Positions 1-28,853 of a stretch of 31,401 bases of DNA are shown piece by piece. The stretch spans positions 1 to 31,401 of IMG/VR virus record IMGVR_UViG_3300025322_000114; one strand, written 5' to 3'. This DNA is from a virus. The notes under the pieces were generated by a model. The model was not told where the DNA came from, made no database searches, and saw only the letters and a program-made list of their open reading frames with translations. A program made the position numbers and the translations under genes. The number at the start of each line of letters is the position of its first letter. The first letter of the stretch is position 1.

Positions 1-40
1 CGCGCTTGCGGCCGATGCGGATTGAGTCTAGATTCAACAT
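1..40 (-). CDS. 5' end of a possible ParB-like protein (partial)
   Basis: An ATG (complement of 38-40) overlaps the stop codon of the upstream glycosylase-like gene. It opens a frame reading MLNLDSIRIGRKR before the window ends. The pattern of a hydrophobic strand followed by IRIG-R-R is typical of the N-terminal domain of ParB/sulfiredoxin-type proteins, where it precedes the GERR-like motif. Only 13 codons are visible, so the family call is a guess from a short motif. The overlapping start is the main evidence that a gene is here. Confidence 0.35.
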   Translation of the reverse strand, partial: MLNLDSIRIGRKR

Positions 41-363
41 CGTTCACAGTCCTTTTTGCCAATGGATTGAGCCCGGCGCCGGTGGTCAGACCGTGCGTCG
101 GGCAATTCGTTTTCATGCTGCCACCTACACTTTAGAATGTTCATCCAGTTGGCGTCAGACCGCTTTAGGCCATACTTCTCCAGACTTCCACTTACAATCC
201 TGCCACTACGCCCGATTAGTGGACTGCCCTTCTCTTCCTCATTCTCGCCTGGGTTTTGGGCACAGAATGTAATCTTCGCTCCTGGGTGAATTTCATCGGG
301 GACAAATCCCTTTCCATCTCCATACCACTTACACGGCTTACACGCATCCGGCTTGTCTAGCAT
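34..363 (-). CDS. Uracil-DNA glycosylase family 4-like protein, short or C-terminally truncated
   Basis: The 109-aa product carries the N-terminal half of the family 4 UDG fold. C8-x2-C11 could be the first pair of [4Fe-4S] ligands. The NPGENEEE...GSPLIGRSG block (residues 37-54) corresponds to the GEAPG-x2-ED...G-PFVG-AG uracil-pocket motif, and NILKC (75-79) is followed by NELPDA. Full-length family members have about 180-230 aa and a later HPS motif, which is absent here; the frame ends in a lone C-x2-C. It is therefore either a degenerate/short phage form or broken by an indel near position 90. The known family role is excision of uracil from DNA; activity of this copy is doubtful. AGGAG lies 5 nt before the ATG. 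Confidence 0.6.
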   Translation of the reverse strand: MLDKPDACKPCKWYGDGKGFVPDEIHPGAKITFCAQNPGENEEEKGSPLIGRSGRIVSGSLEKYGLKRSDANWMNILKCRWQHENELPDARSDHRRRAQSIGKKDCERC

Positions 364-1300: not shown

Positions 1301-1570
1301 TCATCGCTTAGTTAAGGAAGGAGGTAGAAAGTAGACTGCGCCTTCTACCTTAAAGTCTCCAGGTTTAACTCCGGCCTCACTAAGTATCTCGCGTATGCTG
1401 TCGCTACGGTCGCTGAACAACCTTCTTAGAGATGTGTCAGCAGGCCCACCAATAAACCCCGTTATTTCAAGGAGTGCCTGAGCCTCTTTGTACGAGAACC
1501 TAAGTGTGATAAACTCGAATGGAGGCGGAATGGGAACTACCGGCATTTCAGTATTTACTACACTCGCCAT
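1301..1570 (-). CDS. Hypothetical protein, 89 aa
   Basis: A small protein with a Pro-rich N-terminus (PVVPIPPPFEF) followed by an alpha-helical region. AAGGAGGTGTAAT precedes the ATG. It lies 11 nt downstream of the protease gene and is probably co-translated with it. I do not recognise it. Confidence 0.68.
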   Translation of the reverse strand: MASVVNTEMPVVPIPPPFEFITLRFSYKEAQALLEITGFIGGPADTSLRRLFSDRSDSIREILSEAGVKPGDFKVEGAVYFLPPSLTKR

Positions 1571-1581
1571 ATTACACCTCC

Positions 1582-2400
1582 TTACTTCTCCTCTTCAATA
1601 AACCCACGCTTCTGCAACTCCAAGTCCTCACGGCGGAGCTTCTCACGCATCTTCTCGCACTCTTCAAAAGTCACGGACGAGTCGAAGATGAACTGGTACT
1701 TCCATTGCTCCAGCAACTTATACAGCCGCTCAATGTCTGTAAAGTACCCCATATGCGTAATTGGCGAAGACCACCCAACAATGCCAACCCTCGACGGAAT
1801 ACCAATGAATGAGTTATCAGACGAATGGAACATTCCACCACCAGAATTCCCAAACACAATCTGAGCATCGCTCATCCAATATGACATCCCTTCGATCATG
1901 TCAGACATAGACGTAATCTTCCCCTTTGTAATCAGGGGAGGATGCCCAAGCGAACATCCAACCGCAATGGTGTCGTCAAGTAGCTGAATCTGCTTGGTGT
2001 CCGCCTTCGTAAAGAGCTTAGCTACATGCTCCATTGGAGAGGATACCTGCTTTAACCGGAGCAAGGCGACATCGTGATCTTTGTCGTGCATCTTAATCTC
2101 AGCCTCAACCCCATGTGTTCCAATCGCTCGTCCACCGTACTCATACTTAAAGAACTCTACTTTCACCATCGCCCGTGTTTCGATCTTTCGCATCCGTCCA
2201 AGTAGGGCGTCCCACTTCTCCTGAATGGTGATCGCATCTTGAATCACATGCCAGCAAGTAACTACATAATTCTCGTAATCACCCTTCGCGTTCTGTTTCG
2301 CATAGATAGCTGTGCCAGAACCTCCAGCTTCACCAGTCCTCACACGCACACAAGGATACAGAATTTCTTTCAAAATGGGCTGAACTGTCGAGTCACTCAT
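1582..2400 (-). CDS. Trypsin-like serine protease (S1/Trypsin_2 type)
   Basis: The 272-aa product shows the complete chymotrypsin-fold triad in order: His51 in VVTCWHVI, Asp110 in DHDVALLRL, and Ser186 in GNSGGGMF. The GSGTAIY segment at residues 27-33 is the usual first strand of HtrA/Trypsin_2 proteins. No signal peptide is visible, so it should act in the cytoplasm of the infected cell. There is no PDZ domain; the C-terminal ~50 residues are charged and helical. The start has a strong AAGGAGGGAAG site. Known family chemistry is peptide-bond hydrolysis. The target is unknown: host defence or regulatory proteins, or phage proteins, are all possible. It lies in the early operon, away from the virion genes, which argues against a prohead protease. 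Confidence 0.85.
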   Translation of the reverse strand: MSDSTVQPILKEILYPCVRVRTGEAGGSGTAIYAKQNAKGDYENYVVTCWHVIQDAITIQEKWDALLGRMRKIETRAMVKVEFFKYEYGGRAIGTHGVEAEIKMHDKDHDVALLRLKQVSSPMEHVAKLFTKADTKQIQLLDDTIAVGCSLGHPPLITKGKITSMSDMIEGMSYWMSDAQIVFGNSGGGMFHSSDNSFIGIPSRVGIVGWSSPITHMGYFTDIERLYKLLEQWKYQFIFDSSVTFEECEKMREKLRREDLELQKRGFIEEEK

Positions 2401-2412
2401 TATCTTCCCTCC

Positions 2413-2883
2413 TTACAGATACTCATGTCCAGTTTGCGGATCAATCTTCTTTGTGGGTTCCTTCCTTTTTTGGTGCGGTGATGGTTGCATCCCCGTTCCT
2501 ACAGGCACAAAGCCGTAAGGTAAGTGGCCTTCAGTTTTACTTAGTGGGTACGCCTTCTCAGCTTCGTCCCTCGCTAAAGCTTCAACGTGATCTACTGCTG
2601 CCTTCCGTGTTTCATTAAACGACACAAACTCCTCAAGTGTTAGCCGGTCAAGAATGTCCCGGTGTAGCATCATCCACGTACTGTCTCGTCCAGAGACAAA
2701 CGTAAGCACCCCATCCTTGTTGTAGAATTTGTCTTGATACTGGTCAGACTCCACTCGATCAATCGCAATCCCGTTCGGCATCATCGGGACTTGCATCCCT
2801 TTAAAGAGAATAAACTCACCGCCAACAGTGTCGCTAGCGTCTTTGAGGACCCAAGTAGAGGTTTTCATGCGGGGGTCTTGCAT
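2413..2883 (-). CDS. Hypothetical protein, 156 aa
   Basis: I do not recognise this protein. It is soluble, with an N-terminal beta-rich part and a helical Ala/Glu stretch near residues 85-112, then a Pro/Lys-rich tail. The start has AGGAGGAGACACA upstream, and the first ~50 nt overlap the end of the neighbouring membrane protein gene. The next gene, the protease, follows 12 nt after its stop. Confidence 0.7.
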   Translation of the reverse strand: MQDPRMKTSTWVLKDASDTVGGEFILFKGMQVPMMPNGIAIDRVESDQYQDKFYNKDGVLTFVSGRDSTWMMLHRDILDRLTLEEFVSFNETRKAAVDHVEALARDEAEKAYPLSKTEGHLPYGFVPVGTGMQPSPHQKRKEPTKKIDPQTGHEYL

Positions 2884-3113: not shown

Positions 3114-3644
3114 TTACCCTACCACAAACCCCTTCTCTTCACTCGTCGCCACCTTAATCCCCTTGAAGTCCTGCACTGTAGTATCCACACCCTGAATCTT
3201 CGCCTGCCGGTGGGACACTTCAAACGTAATATACCCTCCAGGCAGGTAGTGACTCGCCGCGTCTTTCAGGGCCACACCGATGAGGTCTGCATCTTCAAGT
3301 CCAGCTATACGCCGAATCAGGTTCGACAACGAGTGACGCCCAATACTGTCCTCCTTGCTCACCCAAAAATCAATCCGGCCATTGGTCCGGTAGTTCTGGT
3401 CAGCCGGGAGTATAGCACCAGTGGCAAACTTGAGCGCAGTCACTCCAACAGAAATGACCTTCACTTGCCGCTCTCCACCAGCCACCCGTACCTTCCTCAA
3501 CTTCCCAGGCTCAGTCGCAGACGTGTCCACCTTCGATACTTTGCCAATGTACCTCTTTCCAGCAGGCAGCAACGTAGGCTCAGACAAGTCAGCGTCGTTA
3601 AAGTAATCTTCGTCGTTCATCTCGTCAAGGATTTCCTCAGTCAT
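3114..3644 (-). CDS. Putative single-stranded DNA-binding/recombination accessory protein
   Basis: The 176-aa product starts with an acidic stretch (residues 3-20). It continues as a beta-rich domain typical of small OB-fold proteins, with GKRYIGKVSKV at about 28-38 and alternating strands up to 165. No exact motif identifies it. The assignment rests on composition and on position: it directly follows a Sak4-like ATPase and a RecB-type nuclease, and phage Sak4 genes are commonly paired with an SSB gene. AAGGAGGAAACAAACC precedes the ATG. It could also be an unrelated DUF-type phage protein. Confidence 0.6.
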   Translation of the reverse strand: MTEEILDEMNDEDYFNDADLSEPTLLPAGKRYIGKVSKVDTSATEPGKLRKVRVAGGERQVKVISVGVTALKFATGAILPADQNYRTNGRIDFWVSKEDSIGRHSLSNLIRRIAGLEDADLIGVALKDAASHYLPGGYITFEVSHRQAKIQGVDTTVQDFKGIKVATSEEKGFVVG

Positions 3645-3659: not shown

Positions 3660-3839
3660 TTAAATTAAGTCGGTGTTATCCACCGGAACCATCACAAGTC
3701 CCGACACACCATGCTCATGGTTTAAGAACCTTTCGTTTAGGCAGTTTAGGGCGGCTCTCAGTACTTCCAGTTTCTCCTCCGGTTTCAGTAGCTCCCACGT
3801 CTTCTCTAACAGGCTGTCCTCCATTGCTGTTTCCACCAT
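3660..3839 (-). CDS. Nested out-of-frame gene, 59 aa, at the 3' end of the ATPase gene
   Basis: This frame overlaps the last ~125 nt of the Sak4-like ATPase gene in another reading frame. Its ATG is preceded by GAGGAGGAAGCGA, an excellent ribosome site. The product has a good amphipathic helical pattern (LLEKTWELLKPEEKLEVLR). Its TAA stop lies immediately before the GGAGG of the next gene, filling what would otherwise be a 70-nt gap. The overlapped ATPase tail is a Gly/Glu/Thr-rich low-complexity segment, as expected if the second frame is the constrained one. Function unknown. Confidence 0.5.
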   Translation of the reverse strand: MVETAMEDSLLEKTWELLKPEEKLEVLRAALNCLNERFLNHEHGVSGLVMVPVDNTDLI

Positions 3840-4611
3840 TCGCTTCCTCCTCTTGTACAGGCTCCACATACGGTTTAATACCAATTAACTCCACAATTTT
3901 TTCAGCCGTTCCAGGCTTGTTCAGGTCATAGCTAATCTTCGCAGGAATTTTGTTATTGATCGGTGCGCGAATCCCAGCCACGAACCGCTGTGCAGGCTTA
4001 GTCCGCAGAATACGAATCGCCTCACCATTCGGCTGATCCTCAAGCTCAATGAGAAGGTTATAGCTGAACAGGCCATAAATGTTCGACTTTAACTGCCCAG
4101 GAATGATTACTTGCAAGCGGCCTTCTTTGCCAGTAATCTCATCCTTATCGGGCCACACAAGGCTCGTAATGACGAACAGGTGGGACAGCAACTTGAACCG
4201 CACGATCCATCGCCGCAGTGCTGTAGCGCAGGACATCCAGGTTTTGCCATGATCCTCTGGCATCACCCCCGACGGCACGCGCTCGTTCATCAAGAGCCAA
4301 TAACTTGACACCAACCCATCCCAAATGATTGCCCCAGGTTGCATCTTCTTAATGCGGGAGTACCATAGCTCCAAGTCAGTCTCGTTTGTCAACGTCCTGT
4401 ATGGTACATGCACGTCCGCAAGTGAAGGTGTCCCTTCCTCTTCTGGCCAATCGAGCAAGAAGGTGTTATTCTTGCCGACTACAGCCTCCGCTAACTTCTG
4501 CGCCAGTACAGTCTTCCCACACCGAGGAGGCCCCTGGAGCATGATCGTCCCCCGTGCGGCATCCTCGTCCGTCCACTTAATTTCCTTCAATAACTCCTGC
4601 GGAATTTTCAT
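3715..4611 (-). CDS. RecA-like P-loop ATPase, Sak4-type recombination protein
   Basis: The 298-aa product has Walker A GPPRCGKT (residues 27-34) and a Walker B-like GAIIWDG (93-99). It has the size and order of phage Sak4/AAA_24-type single-core RecA-like ATPases. These promote single-strand annealing or strand exchange together with an SSB. Residues after ~250 form a disordered acidic/Gly-rich tail ending in a basic patch. It sits between a PD-(D/E)XK nuclease upstream and a putative SSB downstream, a typical recombination set. The ribosome site is AGGAG with 8-nt spacing. The tail appears to be overprinted by another small gene. Confidence 0.8.
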   Translation of the reverse strand: MKIPQELLKEIKWTDEDAARGTIMLQGPPRCGKTVLAQKLAEAVVGKNNTFLLDWPEEEGTPSLADVHVPYRTLTNETDLELWYSRIKKMQPGAIIWDGLVSSYWLLMNERVPSGVMPEDHGKTWMSCATALRRWIVRFKLLSHLFVITSLVWPDKDEITGKEGRLQVIIPGQLKSNIYGLFSYNLLIELEDQPNGEAIRILRTKPAQRFVAGIRAPINNKIPAKISYDLNKPGTAEKIVELIGIKPYVEPVQEEEANGGNSNGGQPVREDVGATETGGETGSTESRPKLPKRKVLKP

Positions 4612-4635: not shown

Positions 4636-5592
4636 TTAGGTTTCTCTTGTTTCCCGACACGATCCGGTGGCTTCTTGTAAATGTGTCCCATCAGCTTTCA
4701 CCTCCTGCTTCCACTTTGGTATATGGTACAAATCTGGCATCTCTAATGGGTGCATGTTCACCGAACACGCGAGAAAGAAGCTACACGGGAACGTCTTATG
4801 CCCATACTTCTGTATACAATTTCGCGTCCGCCTCGGTATATCATTCAACGCTCGATCAGGCTCCACCGCGAATGCCGCCAGGTCACGCATCTCCAAGTTC
4901 GCCTTCCACGCAGAAGCCAACCACATATTTGCCTTCCACCCTTCCACTGGGATAGAATGCCTGACAATCTTCGGCTCCTTCACCTTATACTTTCCCTTCG
5001 CCGGAGCGCCCCGAACTCGGTACTCCATAATGACTTCTTGCACTGGTTCTTTCATCCACTTTGACACGCCGATTGGATATAGCAAAGGCTGCCACGCCAA
5101 CTCATACTTGAGATTCTCATAATCCAAATCGGCAAACGGGCTTTCCATCTTCCCTTCGAGGACAGCCAGCGCACCGTCAGCCTTACGAAGTACCAAGTCA
5201 GGGCGCATTGGGGCGGGCCACTCAAGTTTAGGTTGTATCGCTACAATCTCCGCCCAGTCTGAGTCAAGACGAGGAACGGTGGACACGTACAGTTGGGTGA
5301 GGGCAAGTCCCTGATTCTCCCACGTTTGCCACTCTTCCTCTTCCACATCCAAATTTTCCTTACGAAACAAGCGCATCCTGGCGCTGTACTTTTCGACCGC
5401 TTGATCCACAGGGGCACTATTATAATGCAAATTCAACGCGGCGTCAAGGGCTTTTCCAACCAAAAGCCCCATGCGGGATTCGATCCGCTCGACACCTTGA
5501 CGGTACTTCATCAACCACGAAAACTGGCAGAAGTCGTGTTCGTCGTGTTCAGACGGTGACGGGAGTGTAGTTGTTAAGTCACGTAATCTCAT
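4636..5592 (-). CDS. PD-(D/E)XK nuclease, RecB/Cas4-like with probable Fe-S cluster
   Basis: The 318-aa product shows the RecB nuclease motif set. There is an N-terminal Cys22 in DFCQFSWLMKY, then GLLVGKALDAAL (42-53), Asp132 in MRPDLVL, Glu146-x-Lys148 in LEGKME, and a QxxxY motif (Q168, Y172). Three further cysteines at 259, 270 and 276 with Cys22 resemble the one-plus-three arrangement of the AddB/Cas4 iron-sulfur staple. The expected role is a 5' or 3' exonuclease making single strands for the adjacent Sak4-like ATPase. The ATG overlaps the upstream stop (TAATG) with GGGAG ahead. Confidence 0.85.
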   Translation of the reverse strand: MRLRDLTTTLPSPSEHDEHDFCQFSWLMKYRQGVERIESRMGLLVGKALDAALNLHYNSAPVDQAVEKYSARMRLFRKENLDVEEEEWQTWENQGLALTQLYVSTVPRLDSDWAEIVAIQPKLEWPAPMRPDLVLRKADGALAVLEGKMESPFADLDYENLKYELAWQPLLYPIGVSKWMKEPVQEVIMEYRVRGAPAKGKYKVKEPKIVRHSIPVEGWKANMWLASAWKANLEMRDLAAFAVEPDRALNDIPRRTRNCIQKYGHKTFPCSFFLACSVNMHPLEMPDLYHIPKWKQEVKADGTHLQEATGSCRETRET

Positions 5593-10228: not shown

Positions 10229-11104
10229 TTACTTGTTTAGGGGGCAGTCGCAATAAGGAACATCAAGCCAACAGCTTACACACGTCCCATCTATTGCGTC
10301 CCCGCGACACACAGTACACACTCCCCACTGAGTTGCGTCTGTGAGCTTTTTGTTAGTGGAGCCGGTCCCTTCGTCATGCGCTCCACCACCAAATACTTTA
10401 ACTCCCTTTCGGTAGTAATGTAGCGGTGTATCATCAGTTATATGCACTCCACTGTACGGAGTATAACCTACAGGGTCATAAATACCAGAAGTCAACCCCG
10501 TATACACTCCCTTTCCTGGTTCTGCTGTAAACTTTAACTCAGTAATGTCCTTCACGTAGTTGACCTGACCCGTCGTTTCTACCGCCTTATCACAGTACTT
10601 CTTTCGAACAAACTCTACTGGATTATCCGCCAGTTTATAAAGTCCAGCAATTACCGACAGAGCCGAGCCAGTTCTACCGTGCCCACCTTGGCAGCACGCC
10701 ACAACATTCAAGGGTTTGTTCTTCACGTTCGCTGCAAGCTGCTCAAGGTCACTAAGGAGTGCCAACCAGAATTCTTTGTCCAAAAGAGGTATACCCATAT
10801 CGGGCCAATCTACTCCAACCCGAAGCCTCTTTGGTATATGACTCGCTAACATCATAGGTGCAAAGCCGGAACACATAACAGCAGGCAAGTACAAATCGGC
10901 ACAGTCAAGGTACAGCCAGCCAGCCCTCTCCTGAAGTCCACGGGTCCTCCCCGCACCATGAAACTTAAGTACACCAGACGGTGAATCAAACACAAACATA
11001 TTTCCCTCATGACATTTCCACTTACTAATTGGCCCGTGTGTCTTGTCGTCTTTGTGGCTCTGGCCACGACCAATCACTCCACCTTTCTTCCACCACTTCG
11101 ACAT
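10229..11104 (-). CDS. Protein tyrosine/dual-specificity phosphatase with C-terminal zinc ribbon
   Basis: The 291-aa product has the phosphatase signature Cys138-QGGHG-Arg144-Thr (CX5R), the P-loop that forms the phospho-cysteine intermediate, and upstream a WPD motif (W100-P101-D102) that would supply the general acid. The C-terminal ~30 residues are a compact Cys cluster: C263/C266, C275/C278, C285/C287, likely zinc-binding. Family members remove phosphate from Tyr/Ser/Thr or from RNA 5' ends (BVP-type). It is separated by 11 nt from a 617-aa Cys-rich gene, and a second CX5R phosphatase lies on the other side, so these three probably work together. AAGGAGGTTACA precedes the ATG. Confidence 0.82.
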   Translation of the reverse strand: MSKWWKKGGVIGRGQSHKDDKTHGPISKWKCHEGNMFVFDSPSGVLKFHGAGRTRGLQERAGWLYLDCADLYLPAVMCSGFAPMMLASHIPKRLRVGVDWPDMGIPLLDKEFWLALLSDLEQLAANVKNKPLNVVACCQGGHGRTGSALSVIAGLYKLADNPVEFVRKKYCDKAVETTGQVNYVKDITELKFTAEPGKGVYTGLTSGIYDPVGYTPYSGVHITDDTPLHYYRKGVKVFGGGAHDEGTGSTNKKLTDATQWGVCTVCRGDAIDGTCVSCWLDVPYCDCPLNK

Positions 11105-11115
11105 TGTAACCTCCT

Positions 11116-12969
11116 TTAGTTACGGAAATTTTTATATTCTTTACCTATCGCCTTAAGTCTATCGTAATAATGACTAAGGGGTATCTTGTTATTACTAATG
11201 ACCTTCTCTACTGTATCCAAGGATGGAAGTCCCTTTAATTTACGAGTAGTATCATACACAATAGGAGTGTACCTCACCCCCCAAACTGCCTCGGGCAATA
11301 ACTGCACCGCGTCGCCCACTCGCTTGAGTAGCCCGAACCCTTCCGCTTCCTCAATCAGTTTTTTCTGTGCAGGATTTACCAGCACAGGCGGATAGTCATA
11401 CTCAGGAAGCATGCCCTCGAATTTTCTGTTTAGAATAGCATAAAGTTTTTGCCCAGGAGGCGAATGAAATAGCCCCGTCGGCTTAAAGATGAATGAGCCA
11501 CCGTTATGCACAAGTGTAATTGCCTTCTCCACAAATTCGGCCTGCGAAATTGTACCAAGGCGGAATTCTAGCGCGTTCTTTGCGATTGCTCCCCACGCTA
11601 CTCCGCCAAATCCACCATCCCACCTATCAGGAGCAAGGAAACATAGACAGGAAAGCTCAAGCAGTTCTTTGTCATCATAAACTCTAGCGTTCTTATACGC
11701 AGCATCCCGTCCATTCGCAACGGCCCTGAACACTTGAGGTAAAACAACTCCTATAGCCAGAATTACTTCGTTGCTGGCTGCAAGTAAGTTACCGATACAA
11801 GCCCGCGCTCCGTAGTGCCTCACTTCTCCAATACACGCTAGAACGCTTTGGTCGTAGAGTAGTCTAGTCAGTTGCTTCGATACTTCATCCATCTCTCTCT
11901 CTAGTCGTTGCTTAAATCCTCCACTATCTTCAAAGTCCTTTCGAGACTTCATCACCGCATGAATCCCCTCAAGACTATAGTGGACCCCAAGAAGTGCGCC
12001 TAAGTTTATTGCGTCAGCCGAATACGAACTAGCATTCCAGCATGCATAAGTGCAACACTTATGGCACCTCCCACATCTGCTACAATGTCCACTATACTCC
12101 TTATCTTGAGCCAAGTTACACGAAACGCACCGCCAGCATTTACAGCAAAAGATGCAATCCAAACAAACAGGGCAAACCGATGTTTCATTCTTCTCGCGAT
12201 TGATAGGAAGAAAGTCACATACGATCTGACGACACTGCTTACACTTCAAGTCGTCGGCACAACATGACGAGCAGGCTAAGCACGAAAGGCACCTAAAGTA
12301 CTTAAACTCCTTTGTTTTTCCACACATCCAGCACTTCGTCTTCCCTTCCGGTATGTCCTTAAGTTTTCTATTAGAAACGAGCGAAACCACATGCTGCATT
12401 TCGTCGCAAAACTTCTCGTCTAACTCAGTAAGGAATTCTTTAATGCCAGACACGATTAAGGGATGAACTTTTTTAGTACTCATCACCCCTCTAATCGCCT
12501 CCATAATCGTCACAAGAAAAAGGCCAAGCGCAAGGCGACTTCCTCTCGGAAGTCTTAATTTAAAATTCACTGACTGAGCTAATTCCTCTAACGTACCGAC
12601 GTGACTCACTACAAGGCGAAAACCTTGCAACATTTGATTTAGTCTATAAAAGAAGACATTCGCCTCGACCATAGAAGGCCCAGCGTCGTCCCTCCACTTC
12701 CCATACAGGCCATACAAACGTTCCCTCACATTCCCTCGGCTTATTAACGGCGCATTCTGGAGCCCAAGCGCCTTAAACACTGCAACGTGCGAACTCAGAA
12801 CAAGCTCATGGTTATCTGTTATAAGTGAACCACCGGAAACTCTAATCTCCCTCATCGGCATTGCACAGATACGCTTATCAAGCTCAACACCAAACGGAGA
12901 AGTGAACCCAAAAATCCCCCTCGTTAACTTACCAAGCGGCCAGTCAGTTGGTACATATTTATCTGGCAT
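11116..12969 (-). CDS. Large protein with a 24-cysteine zinc-binding core, 617 aa
   Basis: The ATG at 12969 (GAGGAAGAATTCA ahead) is preferred over one five codons upstream. The N-terminal ~210 residues are helical and uncharacterised. Residues ~213-310 hold 24 cysteines, mostly as C-x2-C pairs in series (CWMC, CLSCLACSSCC, CKQC, CPVCLDCIFCCKCWRCVSC, CSRCGRCHKCC), which suggests about six zinc sites, like stacked ribbons or a RING/TRIAD-type assembly. The C-terminal ~300 residues are helical, with an AWGAIAKNALEFRLG-type segment and a VHNGG motif. I know no family with this layout. Flanked on both sides by CX5R phosphatases and overlapping one by 11 nt, it may be their scaffold, substrate adaptor or regulator. 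Confidence 0.75.
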   Translation of the reverse strand: MPDKYVPTDWPLGKLTRGIFGFTSPFGVELDKRICAMPMREIRVSGGSLITDNHELVLSSHVAVFKALGLQNAPLISRGNVRERLYGLYGKWRDDAGPSMVEANVFFYRLNQMLQGFRLVVSHVGTLEELAQSVNFKLRLPRGSRLALGLFLVTIMEAIRGVMSTKKVHPLIVSGIKEFLTELDEKFCDEMQHVVSLVSNRKLKDIPEGKTKCWMCGKTKEFKYFRCLSCLACSSCCADDLKCKQCRQIVCDFLPINREKNETSVCPVCLDCIFCCKCWRCVSCNLAQDKEYSGHCSRCGRCHKCCTYACWNASSYSADAINLGALLGVHYSLEGIHAVMKSRKDFEDSGGFKQRLEREMDEVSKQLTRLLYDQSVLACIGEVRHYGARACIGNLLAASNEVILAIGVVLPQVFRAVANGRDAAYKNARVYDDKELLELSCLCFLAPDRWDGGFGGVAWGAIAKNALEFRLGTISQAEFVEKAITLVHNGGSFIFKPTGLFHSPPGQKLYAILNRKFEGMLPEYDYPPVLVNPAQKKLIEEAEGFGLLKRVGDAVQLLPEAVWGVRYTPIVYDTTRKLKGLPSLDTVEKVISNNKIPLSHYYDRLKAIGKEYKNFRN

Positions 12970-13426
12970 TGAATTCTTCCTCATAAGTCATATGCGCGAT
13001 TACCCTCGCTTGCTGTGCCTTCCGCTCACCTAAACTAAGTTGTTGGTATGCGCTATCAAGTAGTTCGACTGACGCCTTTGAGTTATAGCCTTTCAACCTA
13101 GCTACAGTATACAACACTACGCCAGTCCTATCAATCCCCGCTGCACAATGCACGAACACGGCGGCACCCTGGTTAATTCGGTCAAGGACTTCCCTTGCAA
13201 TAAGTATGACGGCTGCTGGTGGCGTCCAATTCATTCCAGAAGGCCGAAAGCTTATAGGCCGCCACAGCCACTCTTTGCCGCTCTTGAGAACAGCAGCACC
13301 TATAGCCTCAGGGCCTTCTGACTCCTTGAGCAGTGTTACAACGGTGCGAACCTTCGGCATCTTCTCAAAGTCCCTTAGCTTCGGGCGTGGGCCGACAAAT
13401 AGGCCGTCGATAAGTGATTGCCTCAC
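12959..13426 (-). CDS. Dual-specificity/tyrosine phosphatase, 155 aa
   Basis: The product has the classic HCAAGIDRTG signature: Cys94 nucleophile, Arg100 and following Thr, preceded by a Val-rich strand (AAVFVHC). Size and N-terminal layout (DGLFVGPRP, then TVVTLL) match small DSP/PFA-DSP-like phosphatases. The possible acid lies before residue 60. GTG start, with GAGAGGGGGATAGTAAG upstream. It overlaps the 24-cysteine gene by 11 nt, and a second unrelated-looking phosphatase lies at the other side of that gene. Confidence 0.82.
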   Translation of the reverse strand: MRQSLIDGLFVGPRPKLRDFEKMPKVRTVVTLLKESEGPEAIGAAVLKSGKEWLWRPISFRPSGMNWTPPAAVILIAREVLDRINQGAAVFVHCAAGIDRTGVVLYTVARLKGYNSKASVELLDSAYQQLSLGERKAQQARVIAHMTYEEEFNAR

Positions 13427-19632: not shown

Positions 19633-19782
19633 ATGTACCAAGTGTGCAAGGAGTTGGGCCGGTGTTATACACTGGCCTACTATAACTTACCTGTGACTCT
19701 TAGTGACGGAATGTGTTTTGACTTGAGTGCCTTATACAGCCACCAAGTACGTGTGACACAGAGTCGGGTCACAGGACGCTAG
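19633..19782 (+). CDS. Possible small gene, 49 aa
   Basis: An ATG frame runs from just after the TM/zinc gene to 5 nt into tRNA-Thr. It has three cysteines and a plausible composition but no ribosome site. A hairpin (19657-19677) lies inside it. It may not be translated. Confidence 0.22.
   Translation: MYQVCKELGRCYTLAYYNLPVTLSDGMCFDLSALYSHQVRVTQSRVTGR
19657..19677 (+). other. Hairpin upstream of the tRNA genes
   Basis: GGCCGGTGT and ACACTGGCC pair over 9 bp (one G-U) with a 3-nt loop. No U-run follows, so it is more likely a processing or stalling element than a terminator. The rest of the 19625-19777 spacer shows no further clear signal. Confidence 0.4.
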
Positions 19783-19853
19783 ACTAGCTCATCAGGTAGA
19801 GCGGCTGCTTTGTAAGTAGCGGGTGCGGGGTTCGAGTCCTCGGTCTAGCTCCA
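19778..19853 (+). tRNA. tRNA-Thr (anticodon TGT)
   Basis: Complete cloverleaf: acceptor GCTAGAC/GTCTAGC, D-arm GCTC...GAGC, anticodon stem GCTGC/GTAGC with loop TTTGTAA, T-arm CGGGG-TTCGAGT-CCTCG with one G-U. 3' CCA is encoded. Reads ACA codons (and, by wobble, others in the Thr box). Confidence 0.92.
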
Positions 19854-19855
19854 GT

Positions 19856-19930
19856 TGTGGAGTAGTTCAACGGTAGAACAGGTGCCTGTTAAGCACCGCG
19901 CTGGAGGTTCGAGTCCTTCCTCCACAGCCA
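19856..19930 (+). tRNA. tRNA-Asn (anticodon GTT)
   Basis: Acceptor TGTGGAG/CTCCACA, D-arm GTTC...GAAC, anticodon stem GGTGC/GCACC with loop CTGTTAA, T-arm GGAGG-TTCGAGT-CCTTC, encoded CCA. Two nucleotides after tRNA-Thr, so probably one precursor. Confidence 0.92.
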
Positions 19931-19931
19931 C

Positions 19932-20007
19932 GGAGCCATAGGCGAACGGTCAAGCCCCCAGCCCTTCAAGCTGGTGATTGCGAGTTCGAATCTCGCTGGC
20001 TCTACCA
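19932..20007 (+). tRNA. Probable tRNA-Glu (anticodon TTC) with C at position 33
   Basis: Acceptor GGAGCCA/TGGCTCT (first pair G-U), D-arm GGC...GCC, anticodon stem CCAGC/GCTGG, T-arm GCGAG-TTCGAAT-CTCGC, encoded CCA. The 7-nt loop is CCTTCAA, giving TTC at 34-36 but C instead of the universal T at 33. All stems are sound, so it is unlikely to be a pseudogene. Confidence 0.8.
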
Positions 20008-20536: not shown

Positions 20537-20604
20537 GAGACAAGCTGTAACTTGTTCACAACAAAGCGTTTGCGGTGTCTCAACTTTTTGTCTCACTTGT
20601 CTCA
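20537..20604. repeat. Repeated TGAGACA/TGTCTCA heptamers at the 3' end of the ATPase gene
   Basis: GTGAGACA occurs around 20535-20541, and TGTCTCA three times between 20574 and 20604 at about 10-12 bp spacing. A further copy overlaps the +1 region of the ATPase promoter (21541-21547). Part of the array is coding (GETSETKS), so the repeat may be a by-product, but the promoter copy is not. Confidence 0.45.
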
Positions 20605-21473
20605 CCCCTCAATTTCACAATTTTACGGTAGGCGGTCGCCCTTGAGCAAATGCCTCGGTTGACGGCCTCTTCTACCGCTTCAGGGACAGAAAGCTCAGGA
20701 TGGGCCTTCAGTAGCTCCTGAATGGTATATAAAGAGTCTGTCCGAGAGAACGTCCACTTGAGCGGGTCGAAGGTAAGCTTTATAACAGAGTGTGGGTGGT
20801 CGTGGTTCCTGAGTTTAGCGAAGGAAAGAACTCTAGTGTAGCCTCCAAGGGTTGAGAGTTGGACGTTTGTATCAATGGCTCCGCCAAGCGTGCTTGAGCC
20901 GCGCATCTTGTTTAAGCCTTCCCTGGGGTTGTCCTCGTTTGACTTCGCATGGTGGTGGACAATAAATATAGAAAGGCCAAGTTGCTGCCATGCACGTAGA
21001 GGGTCAATGACACCTGCTCTCATTCCCTTAGCGTCGTTCTCGTCTTGATGGTGGAATTCAATAAGCGGGTCGATGATAACGACTTCAATTTTATTTTTCT
21101 TGAGCCAGTGAGTTGTTGCTTGCATAACTACAGGTTCGTCGAGGTAGAAATTAAGTGGGTCAGTGTCTATCCATAGCGTCTTGGGGTAGGCCGTATCGTC
21201 TTTATTTTGAGTCAGTAAGCGATGCTGGATAGTTGCAGGTGGGACTTCTTTCATAATCAGGAGAGTGTTTTGAGGTCGAGGGACAAGGTATCCAAGGAAG
21301 TGGTCGCCGTTTGCAATGTTCATAGCGAGTTGAAGGGTCAGTAACGATTTTCCGGTTCCGGGTTCGCCGCTCAGGATTGTTATACCGTTTTTATCAAGGA
21401 TTCCTCCGCTAATTACTGATTCTATTGGTGGATAATGCTCTGCTGCGAAGTCGCAGCAAGTGAGTTTGTGCAT
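20580..21473 (-). CDS. RepA/AAA_25-type replicative ATPase with C-terminal HTH
   Basis: Start at 21473 (GAAAGGAGCTAAGGAGT ahead), 297 aa. Walker A GEPGTGKS (36-43), Walker B VVIIDP (131-136), an IVHHHAKSN segment (171-179) and RGSSTLGGAIDT (191-202) are the characteristic blocks of RepA/DnaB-like hexameric AAA_25 ATPases used in phage replication or plasmid initiation. The C-terminal ~40 residues look like a winged/helix-turn-helix (VPEAVEEAVNRGICSRATAYRKI), suggesting DNA binding. It is the only leftward gene among rightward genes and has its own strong promoter. The end of the gene and its promoter share TGTCTCA repeats, so self-control is possible. Confidence 0.83.
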   Translation of the reverse strand: MHKLTCCDFAAEHYPPIESVISGGILDKNGITILSGEPGTGKSLLTLQLAMNIANGDHFLGYLVPRPQNTLLIMKEVPPATIQHRLLTQNKDDTAYPKTLWIDTDPLNFYLDEPVVMQATTHWLKKNKIEVVIIDPLIEFHHQDENDAKGMRAGVIDPLRAWQQLGLSIFIVHHHAKSNEDNPREGLNKMRGSSTLGGAIDTNVQLSTLGGYTRVLSFAKLRNHDHPHSVIKLTFDPLKWTFSRTDSLYTIQELLKAHPELSVPEAVEEAVNRGICSRATAYRKIVKLRGETSETKS

Positions 21474-21540
21474 ACTCCTTAGCTCCTTTCGTTCGGTGGG
21501 CACCCCGGCTGCACGCGCTGTGTAGTGGGGTTGTTTGAGG

Positions 21541-21579
21541 TGAGACAACCAGTGTAACACGGCCACTTGCACCTGTCAA
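21541..21579 (-). promoter_or_regulatory. Leftward sigma70-type promoter for the ATPase
   Basis: On the minus strand TTGACA (21574-21579), a 17-bp spacer, then TACACT (21551-21556). A TGTCTCA heptamer (21541-21547) lies a few bases downstream at the expected start region and could be an operator. The mRNA leader would be about 70 nt. Confidence 0.75.
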
Positions 21580-23239: not shown

Positions 23240-23521
23240 ATGTGGCTCTATTTCTGGCTAGGATTCGTCACAGCTTCGCAGGCGGCAATCGTTGGTGCAG
23301 TCGCATATGTACTGTATCACTATACCTACCTCCCGTGGAAAGTGATGCGAAAGGACTTCCAGGCTGCTGCTGAGAAGTTTCGTCAAATTGACGTAGACAT
23401 CGCGGAGTGTAAGTCATTAGTGAAGGCACACCAAGCGGACACGTTTTCTGACCAAGAACTCGCGGCAATCGAGGAGCGACTAAAGCGTAGGAGCCAAATT
23501 CGTGCCGAGCGGTCAGTCTAA
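23240..23521 (+). CDS. Membrane/coiled-coil protein, 93 aa
   Basis: TCAAGGAGGGAAT precedes the ATG. One TM helix (residues ~5-28) is followed by a charged coiled coil to the C-terminus (VMRKDFQAAAEKFRQIDVDI, then the ELAAIEERLKRRSQ segment). That topology is like inner-membrane spanin components, though it is not next to the endolysin. Its 3' end overlaps the terminase by 20 nt. Confidence 0.68.
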   Translation: MWLYFWLGFVTASQAAIVGAVAYVLYHYTYLPWKVMRKDFQAAAEKFRQIDVDIAECKSLVKAHQADTFSDQELAAIEERLKRRSQIRAERSV

Positions 23522-25217
23522 AGTTGGTGGCCTCCGCTCGGATCGCTTCAAGCGGTTCATGCAGGGACTCCAGATTCGCAATGAGCGAGGCTGGATTGTC
23601 CCAATGCGCTTCAGTGAGTCCCAGGAGATTCTCTGGTCGCACGTATCTCCTAAACTTGATCTCGACCAGCGGCTTTGGTTCATCGTCTTGAAGTCGAGGC
23701 AGACATATGCCTCCACCTTCTTCGAGGCGTTGACATTCACTCGGACACTCGAACAGCCAGGGACTCAATCGTTGGTGTTGGCCCAAGACCTCGATTCCTC
23801 CCACGCCTTGTTCAACATGGCGAAGCTGTTTTACGACTACCTGCCACTCCCGAAGCTTGTCCCACCCCGCGTGAAAGTGCTGGAGTTCCCCTTCAAAACC
23901 GGCACGTCGCGCTTTCGGGTCATTTCGGCTGGCGTGTCCGCGAAGGGGAGAGGCACGACCCAGACTTGCATTCATGCGAGTGAAGTAGCATTCTGGAAGC
24001 AACCAGAAATTCTCACTGGCCTGTTCCAAGTCATGCCGGACCTAAACGATACGATGTGGATTCTTGAATCCACAGCGAACGGAAAGGTTGGTGACGGCCA
24101 GTTATTCTACGAAGAATGGCAGCGGGCCATTAGTGGAGAGTCAGACCTTATCCCTATCTTCATCCCGTGGTTTATTATGTCAAAGTATCGGCGGTCCCCA
24201 GGACTGCCGGAAGCTGAATGGGATGAAGAAGAGAAGCTGATTGCGAAGACGCATGGGCTAACGCCAGAGCAACTTGCCTGGCGACGGTTCGCTATCAAGA
24301 CGAAGTGCCAAGGGTCGCTGGAGGTGTTCCACCAGGAATACCCCGCATCTCCCGAAGAGGCCTTCATTTCTCGCGGGCTTCCAGCATTCGACCCTCTCGC
24401 ACTCATTCGTCAGCGAACAAACATTCGCCCCCCACAATGGCGAGGTCGGATGTACAAGTGCCCGCAGGACGACACCTGGAAGTTCACCGACGACCTAAAA
24501 GGTGAGGTGCGCGTCTGGGCAAAGCCAAAAGAAGGCCGCCGGTATGTCATTGGTGCTGACACAGCGGCGGGAGTGATTGGCGGAAACGCCGCGTGTGCAG
24601 AAGTCATTGATATTGAGACACTCGAACAGGTCGCTTGTGTGTACGGTACGATTGCCCCGTGGGATTTTGCCATCGCACTCAATGCTGTTGGGTTGTGGTA
24701 CAACAAGGCGGTTGTTGCCGTCGAAGTGAATAACACCGGCCACGCGGTGCAGGACCCGTTGATTCGCGTTCACAACTATCCGAACTTACATATGTGGCGT
24801 GGCCGCCCTGATAAGATTCGCTTATATCGCTCGCGCCTGTATGGGTGGGAAACGAACGTCTTCAGTCGCCCACTGCTTATTGAAGCGGGCCGCCGTGCCC
24901 TGAACGAGAACTTGTGTACCATCCATGAACAAAAGTTACTTGATGAACTCGCGGACTTCACTCGGACAGACAGTGGAAAGTATGAAGCCGAACACGGCAG
25001 GGACGACAGAGTGATTGCCTTCCTTGTCGCCCTTCGCTCCCGCGAAGAGAATTACTTCGAGCCGCGCAAGGCCATCGCCGTTGTCAGTGATGATGAATTG
25101 CCTGAAGGCATTAAGATCGTCGAGCAGCTTGACCCAAGTGCGCGGGCAAAGAAGCGAGTCGGTGATGTGTTGCGTGAGCAAGCTGGGACTGCGACGAAGA
25201 ATTGGTTGGAGTTATAG
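23502..25217 (+). CDS. terL: Terminase large subunit (DNA packaging ATPase/nuclease)
   Basis: The 571-aa product has the classical Walker A-like LKSRQTYAST (63-72), Walker B TCIHASE with Glu161, and the coupling motif LESTANG (188-194). The C-terminal nuclease domain has Asp353 in GADTAAG, Glu408 in AVEVNN and Asp501/502 in HGRDDRVIA, the three-metal-ligand RNase H-like set. It translocates DNA into the prohead and cuts the concatemer. GTG start with TAGGAGCCAAATTC ahead. Followed, unusually, by the lysis genes. Confidence 0.93.
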   Translation: MPSGQSKVGGLRSDRFKRFMQGLQIRNERGWIVPMRFSESQEILWSHVSPKLDLDQRLWFIVLKSRQTYASTFFEALTFTRTLEQPGTQSLVLAQDLDSSHALFNMAKLFYDYLPLPKLVPPRVKVLEFPFKTGTSRFRVISAGVSAKGRGTTQTCIHASEVAFWKQPEILTGLFQVMPDLNDTMWILESTANGKVGDGQLFYEEWQRAISGESDLIPIFIPWFIMSKYRRSPGLPEAEWDEEEKLIAKTHGLTPEQLAWRRFAIKTKCQGSLEVFHQEYPASPEEAFISRGLPAFDPLALIRQRTNIRPPQWRGRMYKCPQDDTWKFTDDLKGEVRVWAKPKEGRRYVIGADTAAGVIGGNAACAEVIDIETLEQVACVYGTIAPWDFAIALNAVGLWYNKAVVAVEVNNTGHAVQDPLIRVHNYPNLHMWRGRPDKIRLYRSRLYGWETNVFSRPLLIEAGRRALNENLCTIHEQKLLDELADFTRTDSGKYEAEHGRDDRVIAFLVALRSREENYFEPRKAIAVVSDDELPEGIKIVEQLDPSARAKKRVGDVLREQAGTATKNWLEL

Positions 25218-25218
25218 T

Positions 25219-25320
25219 ATGATGAAGGCGCTTGCTAGGGGACTTGGCTGGGTCATCGGCGCTCCTTCGTTGTTCTTCCTTCTTCTTGCTTCAAAGTTAT
25301 ATGAATATGGAGAATCCTAA
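25219..25320 (+). CDS. One-TM peptide, 33 aa, at head of the lysis cassette
   Basis: TTGGAGTTATAGT lies before the ATG. The product is a short amphipathic N-terminus and a Leu/Phe-rich TM helix (about 10-24), ending in a polar tail. It ends in a TAATG overlap with the holin gene, so an antiholin or second holin is plausible. Confidence 0.58.
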   Translation: MMKALARGLGWVIGAPSLFFLLLASKLYEYGES

Positions 25321-25766
25321 TGGGTTTCTTAGCTGCAATTCCTTTCATTGGTTCGCTCCTCGATTCTGTATTTAATGGAATAGATAAAGTTTCCACCACC
25401 GACGAAGAGCGACTCAAGTTCAAGCACGAAATGATGACGGTTGCTGCGCCGGTGATTACCATGCTGGTGCAAGCACAGGCCGAATTCGACAAAGCTCAGC
25501 GCGACATTCAGATCGCCGCTTTGCAGTCTGGTGATCCGTTCGTTCGCCGCGTCCGCCCTCTGTTGATGTGCGCGACGTTTGTGGCATGGATTGCGATTGA
25601 AGGCTTCGCTATGTACCTGACCGGCGCAAGCCCTGAGTACCTCGAAGCGGCTGCACAACGGGCGTTCTACGCATTCGGTCTCATTGGTGGCCTCTTCACT
25701 GCGACTCGCGGTGTCGAGAAGGGTATTATGCACTGGGCAGCCAGTAAGAACGGTAGCAACAAATAA
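25320..25766 (+). CDS. Holin, gene-transfer-agent 3-TM type
   Basis: The 148-aa product has an N-terminal hydrophobic patch (LAAIPFIGSLLDSV), a charged helical middle with QAQAEFDKAQRDIQ, the signature GDPFVRRVRPLLM, and two C-terminal TM helices around 80-100 and 115-130 (GLIGGLFTATRG). This is the layout of GTA_holin_3TM. It makes lesions that release the endolysin. The stop overlaps the lysozyme start (TAATG). Confidence 0.85.
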   Translation: MGFLAAIPFIGSLLDSVFNGIDKVSTTDEERLKFKHEMMTVAAPVITMLVQAQAEFDKAQRDIQIAALQSGDPFVRRVRPLLMCATFVAWIAIEGFAMYLTGASPEYLEAAAQRAFYAFGLIGGLFTATRGVEKGIMHWAASKNGSNK

Positions 25767-26239
25767 TGGACACAACGGAGGGAACACTAAATCGGTGTCT
25801 CACTCCAGCAGGCCTTGCATTTATTAAGTCCTGGGAGTCCTTCAGTGCGACTCCATATCAGGATACTGGTGGTGTGTGGACGAACGGGTACGGGAACACC
25901 CAAGGCGTTGGGCCTGACACACCGCCACTCACTGAAGAAGAAGCGGAGAAGTTACTCGCGGAGGATTGTGAAACAGCCGAAGATGCTGTGGGTCGGTTAG
26001 TGACAGTCCCGCTTACGAATGAACAGTTCGACGCGCTAGTGTCCTTCACGTACAATGTCGGTGAAGATGCCTTACGCATATCTACTCTTCGCCAATTCCT
26101 TAACGCAGGTATGTATAACGAAGTTCCTCGGCAGCTGCTCCGATGGGTTTTTGACAACGGCGTGAAGATTCCTGGCTTAGTGAATCGTCGAAACGCCGAG
26201 TGTCGCATCTGGTTGGAGGGAAAGTATGAGAAAGTATAA
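25766..26239 (+). CDS. Endolysin, GH24 lysozyme (T4/lambdoid type)
   Basis: The 157-aa product shows the E-8aa-D-5aa-T catalytic set of phage lysozymes: Glu24 (KSWESF), Asp33 and Thr39 in GGVWTNGYGNT. LVSFTYNVG (about 92-100) is the conserved core. No signal or SAR helix is visible, so it depends on the holin. It cleaves the peptidoglycan glycan backbone. Its 3' end overlaps the next gene. Confidence 0.9.
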   Translation: MDTTEGTLNRCLTPAGLAFIKSWESFSATPYQDTGGVWTNGYGNTQGVGPDTPPLTEEEAEKLLAEDCETAEDAVGRLVTVPLTNEQFDALVSFTYNVGEDALRISTLRQFLNAGMYNEVPRQLLRWVFDNGVKIPGLVNRRNAECRIWLEGKYEKV

Positions 26240-27095: not shown

Positions 27096-28853
27096 ATGGA
27101 AGACATCGAGGCTGCTAAGTCTACGCTGACTCTAAAGGATGAGTCCACCACACCTGCGGGTTTGTATACACCCACCCCCCAAGAAGTCGAGATGTGGGGC
27201 TGGTTGGAGAGCGCCGCGAACGAATCTGAGCGAGTCCGAGAAGACGAGGCGGAGTTTTCTAAATTTGACAGCGCCCTGAATATCTTCTACGGGAAGCACT
27301 GGCCAAAAACCATGCCCTCGTACCGCCCGCCTATTGTCGCAAACGAGCTTCGCACGCTCATTCTGTCTGAAGCGAGCGACTTAAGCGAGTCGCAGCTTCG
27401 TATTTATGTATCCCGCAATAAAAATACACAAGGTCGAGATGCGAAAGCGGAGCGTGCATTCCGCGCAGTGTGGGCACGGAACTTTGTAGACCTTGAGTTA
27501 CTGTACGCCTGCATGTGGTCCCTCATTGTTGGGACTGGCTTCATTGATGTCCAGTGGGATTCGGCTGCGGCGAACGGGATGGGGGATGTTGTAGTTGAAC
27601 ACCGCGATCCTCGTACCGTCCTGCCTGACCCCGATGCCGTGAACGACATCAAATGGAACATGGTCATTAAAGAGACGGTCATGGACCTGTACGACGTTCG
27701 CCGCTTGTTCCCTATCAAGGGGATGTATGTCAAGCCAGAGGATCGGTACAGTGCTAAGGAACGCGCTGGGTCGTTCAGTCCTGAAGGCCCCCGCACGTCA
27801 TACTACAGCGGCCCACTATATTCCAGTTCAATCTTCCAGACTTCCACCCTTGGGTTTAAGAAGTCCCGCGCTCGCATCCTTGATGCAGTCTTCCGTGATC
27901 CCGCAATGGAGTCCGTTGTTGAGGAGGAGCTAGACAGTGAAGGAACTCCACGCTTAGACGAGAATGGGAATAAGATACTGGTGTCACGCGAAAAGGCACT
28001 CTACCCATTCGCCCGCCGCGTCGTTGGGTGTAATGGTGTCATCCTGTGGGACGGCCCATACAACTACCGAGACTTCGGCTTGCTGCGTGTGATCCTTGAG
28101 CCAGCCCTAGGCCGCTTTTGGTCTAACGGCTTCGTCCAACAGACTGAGCAACTCCAGCTTGCCGCGAACAAGATGCTGTCTGCTCAGGTGGAAAACGCGA
28201 TCCGGTTGAATAACGGGCTGGTGGTTGCCATAGGAAATACCGGACTGGACTGGGAAAGCTTCGCGTCCATTCCCGCCCAGGTATTACAAATCAACGCGAA
28301 CTCTGAAGTGAAGATTGTGTACCCGCCCCCTATGCCACCGGACATGGTACAAGCCCCCGAGCGTATGCTGGCGCTGCAACGCCGCTTGCTTGGGTTCTCT
28401 GAGCCACGCACGGGCCAAGCAGGACGCGGGAACATCTCCGCTGATCTGACTGAAACTGAAATCGCGCAGTCGCAGTCCACGACTCGGCTCCGCGCACGTA
28501 TGCTGTACAACGTCGTGCAGCGCCTCGCGGAAATGATCTTCGCTCGGATGGCGATGGGGTACACTACCCCTCGGACTATTCCTGCTGTCGAAGGACAGTC
28601 CTATGAGCCTGTGAATTGGGAGCCACTAGAGAAACCTGAGGAGTATTCAGTGTACGTGGACCCTGCGTCCTTCGCAGTCATGTCCAAAACCATGCTCAAG
28701 CGCCTCGGGTCTATGCTGTTCCGAATGCAGGCCATTGATCGCAAGTCACTGCTCGAAACAATCGAGTGGCCAAATTGGGAAAGTGTGGCTGGTCGTATGG
28801 ATAAAGCAGCCGCCGCTGCTGCGATGATGAAGGCGCAGTCGAAGAAGAAGTAA
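27096..28853 (+). CDS. Portal protein (P22/podovirus-like)
   Basis: The 585-aa product has the length and features of large podovirus-type portals: YRPPIVANELRTLI near 76-90, VGTGFIDVQWD (about 145-155), PDPDAVNDIKWN (about 176-187), a crown/clip region with YRDFGLLRVILEP, and a helical C-terminus ending in a basic tail. It forms the dodecameric ring through which the terminase packages DNA. The lack of a fused Mu-type domain fits a P22-like form. AAGGATAATGT precedes the ATG. Confidence 0.8.
   Translation: MEDIEAAKSTLTLKDESTTPAGLYTPTPQEVEMWGWLESAANESERVREDEAEFSKFDSALNIFYGKHWPKTMPSYRPPIVANELRTLILSEASDLSESQLRIYVSRNKNTQGRDAKAERAFRAVWARNFVDLELLYACMWSLIVGTGFIDVQWDSAAANGMGDVVVEHRDPRTVLPDPDAVNDIKWNMVIKETVMDLYDVRRLFPIKGMYVKPEDRYSAKERAGSFSPEGPRTSYYSGPLYSSSIFQTSTLGFKKSRARILDAVFRDPAMESVVEEELDSEGTPRLDENGNKILVSREKALYPFARRVVGCNGVILWDGPYNYRDFGLLRVILEPALGRFWSNGFVQQTEQLQLAANKMLSAQVENAIRLNNGLVVAIGNTGLDWESFASIPAQVLQINANSEVKIVYPPPMPPDMVQAPERMLALQRRLLGFSEPRTGQAGRGNISADLTETEIAQSQSTTRLRARMLYNVVQRLAEMIFARMAMGYTTPRTIPAVEGQSYEPVNWEPLEKPEEYSVYVDPASFAVMSKTMLKRLGSMLFRMQAIDRKSLLETIEWPNWESVAGRMDKAAAAAAMMKAQSKKK

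Follow-up and report, generated by a model that had tools for sequence, protein, structure and literature searches.

The protease gene and its surroundings

The window analyzed here is an entire virus record of 31,401 bases. Its minus strand encodes, at positions 1582–2400, a stand-alone serine protease of the trypsin/HtrA fold (272 amino acids, ATG start), with a strong AGGAGG upstream of the start codon. The catalytic triad is intact, in the order His–Asp–Ser (H51, D110, S186), and S186 lies within a GNSGGG motif. An earlier note on this DNA had described this triad and the lack of both a signal peptide and a PDZ domain, and it was right on this anatomy: Pfam gave no PDZ domain, and a hydrophobicity check revealed no signal or membrane segment, the N-terminus not being hydrophobic.

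The Pfam matches were Trypsin_2 (E = 1.3e-13, 52.3 bits against a cutoff of 27.6) and Trypsin (6.9e-5, 23.2 bits against a cutoff of 20.6); nothing else appeared at E ≤ 1, and the S78 and S77 prohead protease profiles were not matched. The NCBIfam models of the Do family matched weakly (33.1 bits, below the cutoff of 416.2). Among PHROG profiles, the protease domain matched best to phrog_11383 (7.3e-11, without assigned function) and phrog_9683 ("protease", 8.4e-9), in each case over part of the profile.

The gene is separated by 11–12 bases from its neighbor on each side and shares their strand, an arrangement that resembles an operon. Downstream lies a gene for an 89-residue protein (1301–1570, minus strand), which had no PHROG match and whose relatives are absent from the other loci of the family; upstream is a gene for a 156-residue protein (2413–2883, minus strand) with no confident family match. 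Still further upstream, also on the minus strand, come the genes for a 176-residue protein (3114–3644), then for a Sak4-like single-strand DNA annealing protein, or AAA_24 P-loop protein (3715–4611; phrog_124, 8.2e-11; AAA_24, 6.6e-5, under the cutoff), and finally for a PD-(D/E)XK nuclease (4636–5592; PDDEXK_1, 5.6e-5, over the cutoff). At the contig end sits a partial gene of the uracil-DNA glycosylase (UDG) superfamily (34–363, minus strand; PF03167, 1.4e-7); it covers 61 of the 141 profile positions, and its shortness may reflect a frameshift or a real truncation. Together with an RNA ligase, a Rv2179c-like exoribonuclease and some weakly PTP-like proteins, the nuclease, Sak4-like and UDG genes make up a leftward block of about 16 kb. 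At 10229–13426, a 622-residue Cys-rich protein lies between two others whose matches, PTP-like or to phrog_17568, are weak.

The late genes run rightward: terminase (23502–25217), holin (25320–25766), endolysin (25766–26239) and portal (27096–28853). The position of the holin and endolysin genes, between the large terminase and the portal, seemed unusual for a lysis cassette. Three tRNA genes in a row (Thr-TGT, Asn-GTT and Glu-TTC, at 19778–20007) lie near the strand switch. About 21 kb separate the protease gene from the terminase gene, and the terminase, portal, holin and endolysin genes are all at least 21 kb away on the opposite strand. The statement in the earlier note that the protease lies among early genes and far from virion genes thus stands as regards the distance and a setting in a DNA-metabolism operon; the word "early" is a reading of gene content and strand, from which early expression of the protease seems probable to us too.

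A near-identity search with 25,000 of the window's 31,401 bases found no match among phages, and neither the Sak4-like protein nor the PDDEXK nuclease gave a tblastn match in phage records.

Predicted fold

We modeled the protease as a monomer with AlphaFold2, using an alignment of relatives (A3, described below). The model (pLDDT 88.5, pTM 0.87) shows a mainly strand domain, after which a C-terminal helix, residues 245–271, closes the protein. DegP, DegS and DegQ took the top ranks when the model was compared with known structures by Foldseek and VIA-align. DegP superposed with Z = 25.9 and 2.4 Å over 192 residues (23% identity), and the DegP, DegS and HtrA chains as a group gave Z = 22.5–25.9 over 176–193 residues. 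On the strength of this model, we are confident that the domain has a DegP/DegS-type fold.

The window protein and the HtrA/Deg enzymes (DegP, DegQ, DegS; Trypsin_2) have in common the chymotrypsin-fold domain, the His/Asp/Ser triad and the GNSGG motif. Whereas bacterial HtrA/Deg members carry an export signal or a membrane anchor, the phage-encoded form has no export signal; it also lacks a PDZ domain, is set apart by its C-terminal helix, and is 18–25% identical to the structures compared. Prohead proteases (S78, S77) are likewise phage-encoded serine proteases, but their profiles do not match it.

A large family of relatives

A scan of viral contigs with the window protease as single sequence returned no relatives, because that method needs exact 8-residue words. 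A two-row alignment (A2), pairing the window protein with an HtrA protein of MT836729, a bacterial-looking record, retrieved one weak locus. In a motif scan (GNSGGG, one hydrophobic residue, F), we found at least 119 loci; at 52 of them the encoded protein scored above 60 bits in phmmer, which came to 41 different proteins. Alignment A3 consists of the window protein and 36 of these 41; the five omitted ones (L116, L151, L152, L204 and L209) were near-copies, fragments or outliers. We then scanned again with A4, an alignment of nine rows drawn from the proteins closest to the window protease. Of the 418 candidate stretches that resulted, 392 qualified as relatives at E ≤ 1e-3, and the best 80 of the 392 were taken further. 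The idea, put forward in the earlier note, that chymotrypsin-fold enzymes are simply rare in phage early operons is not supported in that form, given so many relatives in uncultured phages.

Against A3, at least 142 ORFs among the matches listed scored above 60 bits and at least 137 above 100 bits, the latter including the window protein (136 further ones). Among the 137 ORFs listed, every row with a residue at the position had His at H51 (135/135), Asp at D110 (135/135) and Ser at S186 (137/137); the Ser motif belonged to the search patterns, while the His and the Asp were absent from the patterns of both the motif scan and the A4 scan. The window protease aligns over its full length, with conserved GSG, TxxHV, D110, GCS and GNSGG motifs. 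Another conserved residue, R204 (124 of the 137 ORFs listed), was considered for a part in S1-pocket specificity.

Purifying selection acts across the family: dN/dS was 0.012–0.110 in 12 of 15 close pairs, all between relatives and none including the window protein, with the other three pairs saturated. The window protein has no close relative, its top identity being 47%, to L215. Taken together, the family alignment, the purifying selection in relatives and the confident fold place the ORF far beyond chance; it is a genuine gene. That it might be inactive or decaying is hardly credible, as we found nothing in the sequence in favor of this, against a conserved triad, a family under purifying selection and a reading frame that is open and preceded by a good ribosome-binding site. 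To judge from sequence, conservation is as expected of an active enzyme.

We searched 50,697 phage records by tblastn with seven queries from different branches (E ≤ 0.01 for the window protein, E ≤ 1e-3 for the others). Matching records numbered one for the window protein, none for L179, one for L126, none for L222, nine for L223, two for L241 and none for L215. The matches were weak or resembled bacterial HtrA, except those in Microcystis phage Mae-JY35 and in LR756511, a 595-kb uncultured phage; the two proteins scored 57.1 and 56.6 bits, respectively, against the family HMM, for which the family line is 60 bits. Hence, as far as such searches can tell, the family appears close to absent from these records. 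The window protease had no match in plasmids. In 84,980 prokaryote genomes, 77 pattern matches led to three loci, absence elsewhere being unproven with an exact-word pattern; by eye, L213 looks like the T4-like phage contigs, L212 has phage-like gene content and L214 looks cellular. What emerges from these sequences is a large, uncharacterized protease family, found mostly in environmental or uncultured phages. In the open-licence literature, we found no description of a phage-encoded intracellular trypsin-like protease.

Branches and gene neighborhoods

For the tree, ten loci were left out first, and 106 distinct proteins were thinned at 90% identity to 76 rows. By a simple hydrophobicity rule, 15 of the 76 rows were labeled as signal-peptide forms and 61 as cytoplasmic; ten of the 15 form a single, fully supported set. 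The window protein lacks a leader and falls into no well-supported small set; its branch is long (0.9 changes per column), so the protein could have a role of its own.

The earlier note had proposed a search of phage data for linked genes. No conserved partner, either inhibitor or substrate, turned up among the neighbors across lineages. L283 has AAA_24/Sak4, protease and UDG genes as in the window, and in addition an AAA protein resembling that encoded at 20580–21572 of the window. In group B the order is UvsX-like protein, Cas4-type exonuclease, RuvC-like protein, protease, terminase; in the T4-like group, a single-strand DNA-binding protein, a helicase loader, an exonuclease and an endolysin are encoded near the protease. 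Among the same-strand neighbors of the dereplicated cytoplasmic loci (132 of 218 listed), terminase (5), Hsp20 (4) and ribonucleotide reductase (3) lead, and among the neighbors of 14 signal-peptide loci (81 of 100 listed), endolysin phrog_7 and the small terminase subunit lead with three each. Depending on the lineage, the protease is accompanied by recombination genes, Hsp20 or terminase, so that no one partner is shared and the neighborhood names no target. As relatives also occur beside genes for terminase, Hsp20, tail proteins or lysis, the link to early operons drawn in the earlier note does not extend to the family; the branches in lysis or tail regions mean that the ancestral role may have been neither early nor cytoplasmic. 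In L147, L164, L192 and L203, the protease gene points the other way from the conserved block around it, suggesting that it is locally mobile.

Proximity was assessed in 50 family-bearing records, with tests that were post hoc and ignored kinship, so that clades are not independent and the statistics are weak. RecA, present in nine of the 50 records, was encoded within 1 kb of the protease in three, all from one clade (0.79 expected, p = 0.034), with no excess at 3 or 4 kb (p = 0.40 and 0.31).

Hsp20 was present in ten records, and within 3 kb of the protease in six of them (1.93 expected, p = 0.0045). In the one clade formed by L220, L222, L240, L265 and L269, the Hsp20 gene is followed by the protease within 0.4–1.6 kb; in part of this clade a peptide-deformylase-like gene, recognized by eye, lies downstream. 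Such proximity, the DnaJ-like and ClpP-like neighbors that we recognized by eye (L224, L285), and the modeled DegP-type fold itself would suit a role in proteostasis: like bacterial HtrA, the enzyme would clear misfolded or surplus proteins while phage proteins are made in a burst, in concert with phage chaperones. We consider this unlikely for the window protein, because five of the six close Hsp20 cases come from a single clade, no Hsp20 was identified in the window, and there is no PDZ domain for recognizing unfolded substrates.

The known phage proteases serve mostly in virion maturation. Processing of head, tail or ejected proteins is one alternative for the window protease. Consistent with it, the T4-like contigs L126, L146 and L211 have the protease gene between tail-protein and baseplate-hub genes, and other copies adjoin terminase genes. 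The family shows no fixed link to virion genes, however, and the window copy lies 21 kb from them. In a different selection of 50 family-bearing records, mostly larger contigs, canonical prohead proteases occur, over the cutoff, in seven (S78 in six, S77 in one); these seven phages thus have a prohead protease of their own, which argues against a general role in head maturation; no virion protease was recognized by eye in the sibling contig L003/L090. Moreover, Trypsin_2 was found in none of 48 records with terminases related to that of the window, many of them fragments, which suggests that the protease is an accessory gene; in a comparison with five such terminase relatives, the window protease had no match. 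Overall, virion maturation is disfavored for the family, and we regard virion processing as quite improbable.

Possible role in the infected cell

That the family is large, uncharacterized and carried mostly by environmental phages suggests to us that the window protease probably serves to cut some protein within the infected cell. More specifically, the phage would make a substrate-specific serine endoprotease with an HtrA catalytic domain in the cytoplasm of its host. The enzyme would act early, from an operon-like run shared with recombination and repair genes, and would cleave one or a few proteins in connection with host takeover, counter-defense or phage DNA-metabolism factors, rather than virion maturation. 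Of the readings considered, we hold this to be the likeliest, at about even odds: an enzyme that is active during infection, specific, and located in the cytoplasm.

Because it recurs across unrelated lineages of phages and beside changing neighbors, the protease stands out as a mobile accessory function, most simply a host-directed one. A study of jumbo phages (PMC7824862) holds that well-conserved peptidases track virion types and that patchy ones may be used against the host. Host takeover or counter-defense is a plausible role for the window protease. Of the possible targets named in the earlier note (host regulators, anti-phage proteins, phage precursors), those belonging to the host or its defenses are a fair hypothesis. 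If so, a widespread stand-alone intracellular enzyme of the trypsin fold would open a new way to study the takeover of host proteins by phages.

PADLOC models for RT-Protease_XI (2.2e-8), LmuA (1.8e-7) and PDC-S45 (5.9e-5) matched the window protease, as might be expected of a phage-carried effector of defense or superinfection exclusion directed at other phages. These matches, however, span only the shared protease domain, and no reverse transcriptase or SMC-like partner occurs among the window proteins scanned; an effector of this sort is very unlikely.

A signal-peptide branch near lysis genes

Some members of the signal-peptide branch are located by lysis-type genes (L223, 2158–3015; L256, 971–1777; L137, 12744–13505; L295, 11965–12723), and these may be secreted lysis proteases. 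In L256 a Phage_lysozyme gene adjoins the protease gene, in the record of L218 a lysozyme gene is 0.93 kb away, and in L223 an M15_4 protein is encoded nearby. An M15 identity given by eye to neighbors in L137, L226 and L229 was dropped, as Pfam and PDB gave no match.

These cases, with that of Mae-JY35, bring up a lysis protease as an explanation for the window gene as well: the enzyme would help break the envelope, or activate or clear a lysis factor at the end of infection, and a cytoplasmic form would leave by way of the holin. Peptidoglycan hydrolases of four Pfam families, picked partly after seeing examples, were detected in just eight of the 50 records; they lay within 1 kb of the protease in three of the eight (0.66 expected, p = 0.021, post hoc), within 3 kb in four (1.89 expected, p = 0.079) and within 4 kb in five (2.34 expected, p = 0.034). 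PF08291 was found in none of the 50, and the M15-like neighbors fell away as described. In the window itself, the protease has no leader, and the holin and endolysin genes (25320–26239) are 23 kb away on the other strand. A lysis function of the window protease is accordingly improbable.

For the family as a whole, a tentative and rather doubtful possibility is that, phage-specific and nearly unseen in cultured phages, it uses one HtrA-type domain in two compartments, as an early cytoplasmic form that cuts a host or defense protein (the window) and as a secreted form in lysis cassettes. With the signal-peptide branch, a protease would then join holin, endolysin and spanin in the picture of phage lysis.

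Microcystis phage Mae-JY35, although distant, is in culture and offers a system for the idea of a secreted lysis protease. Its trypsin-like protein XAI96534.1 is 27.8–30.1% identical to L223 and L241; unlike the window protease, it has a signal-peptide-like start and is encoded behind lysis genes, and its 57 bits fall below the 60-bit line of the family. The gene order in this phage is an amidase-like gene (annotated as lysozyme-like), four small ORFs and the protease with its leader-like start. By eye, the four small ORFs encode, in turn, a holin-like protein, a transmembrane protein, a lipoprotein and a second transmembrane protein.
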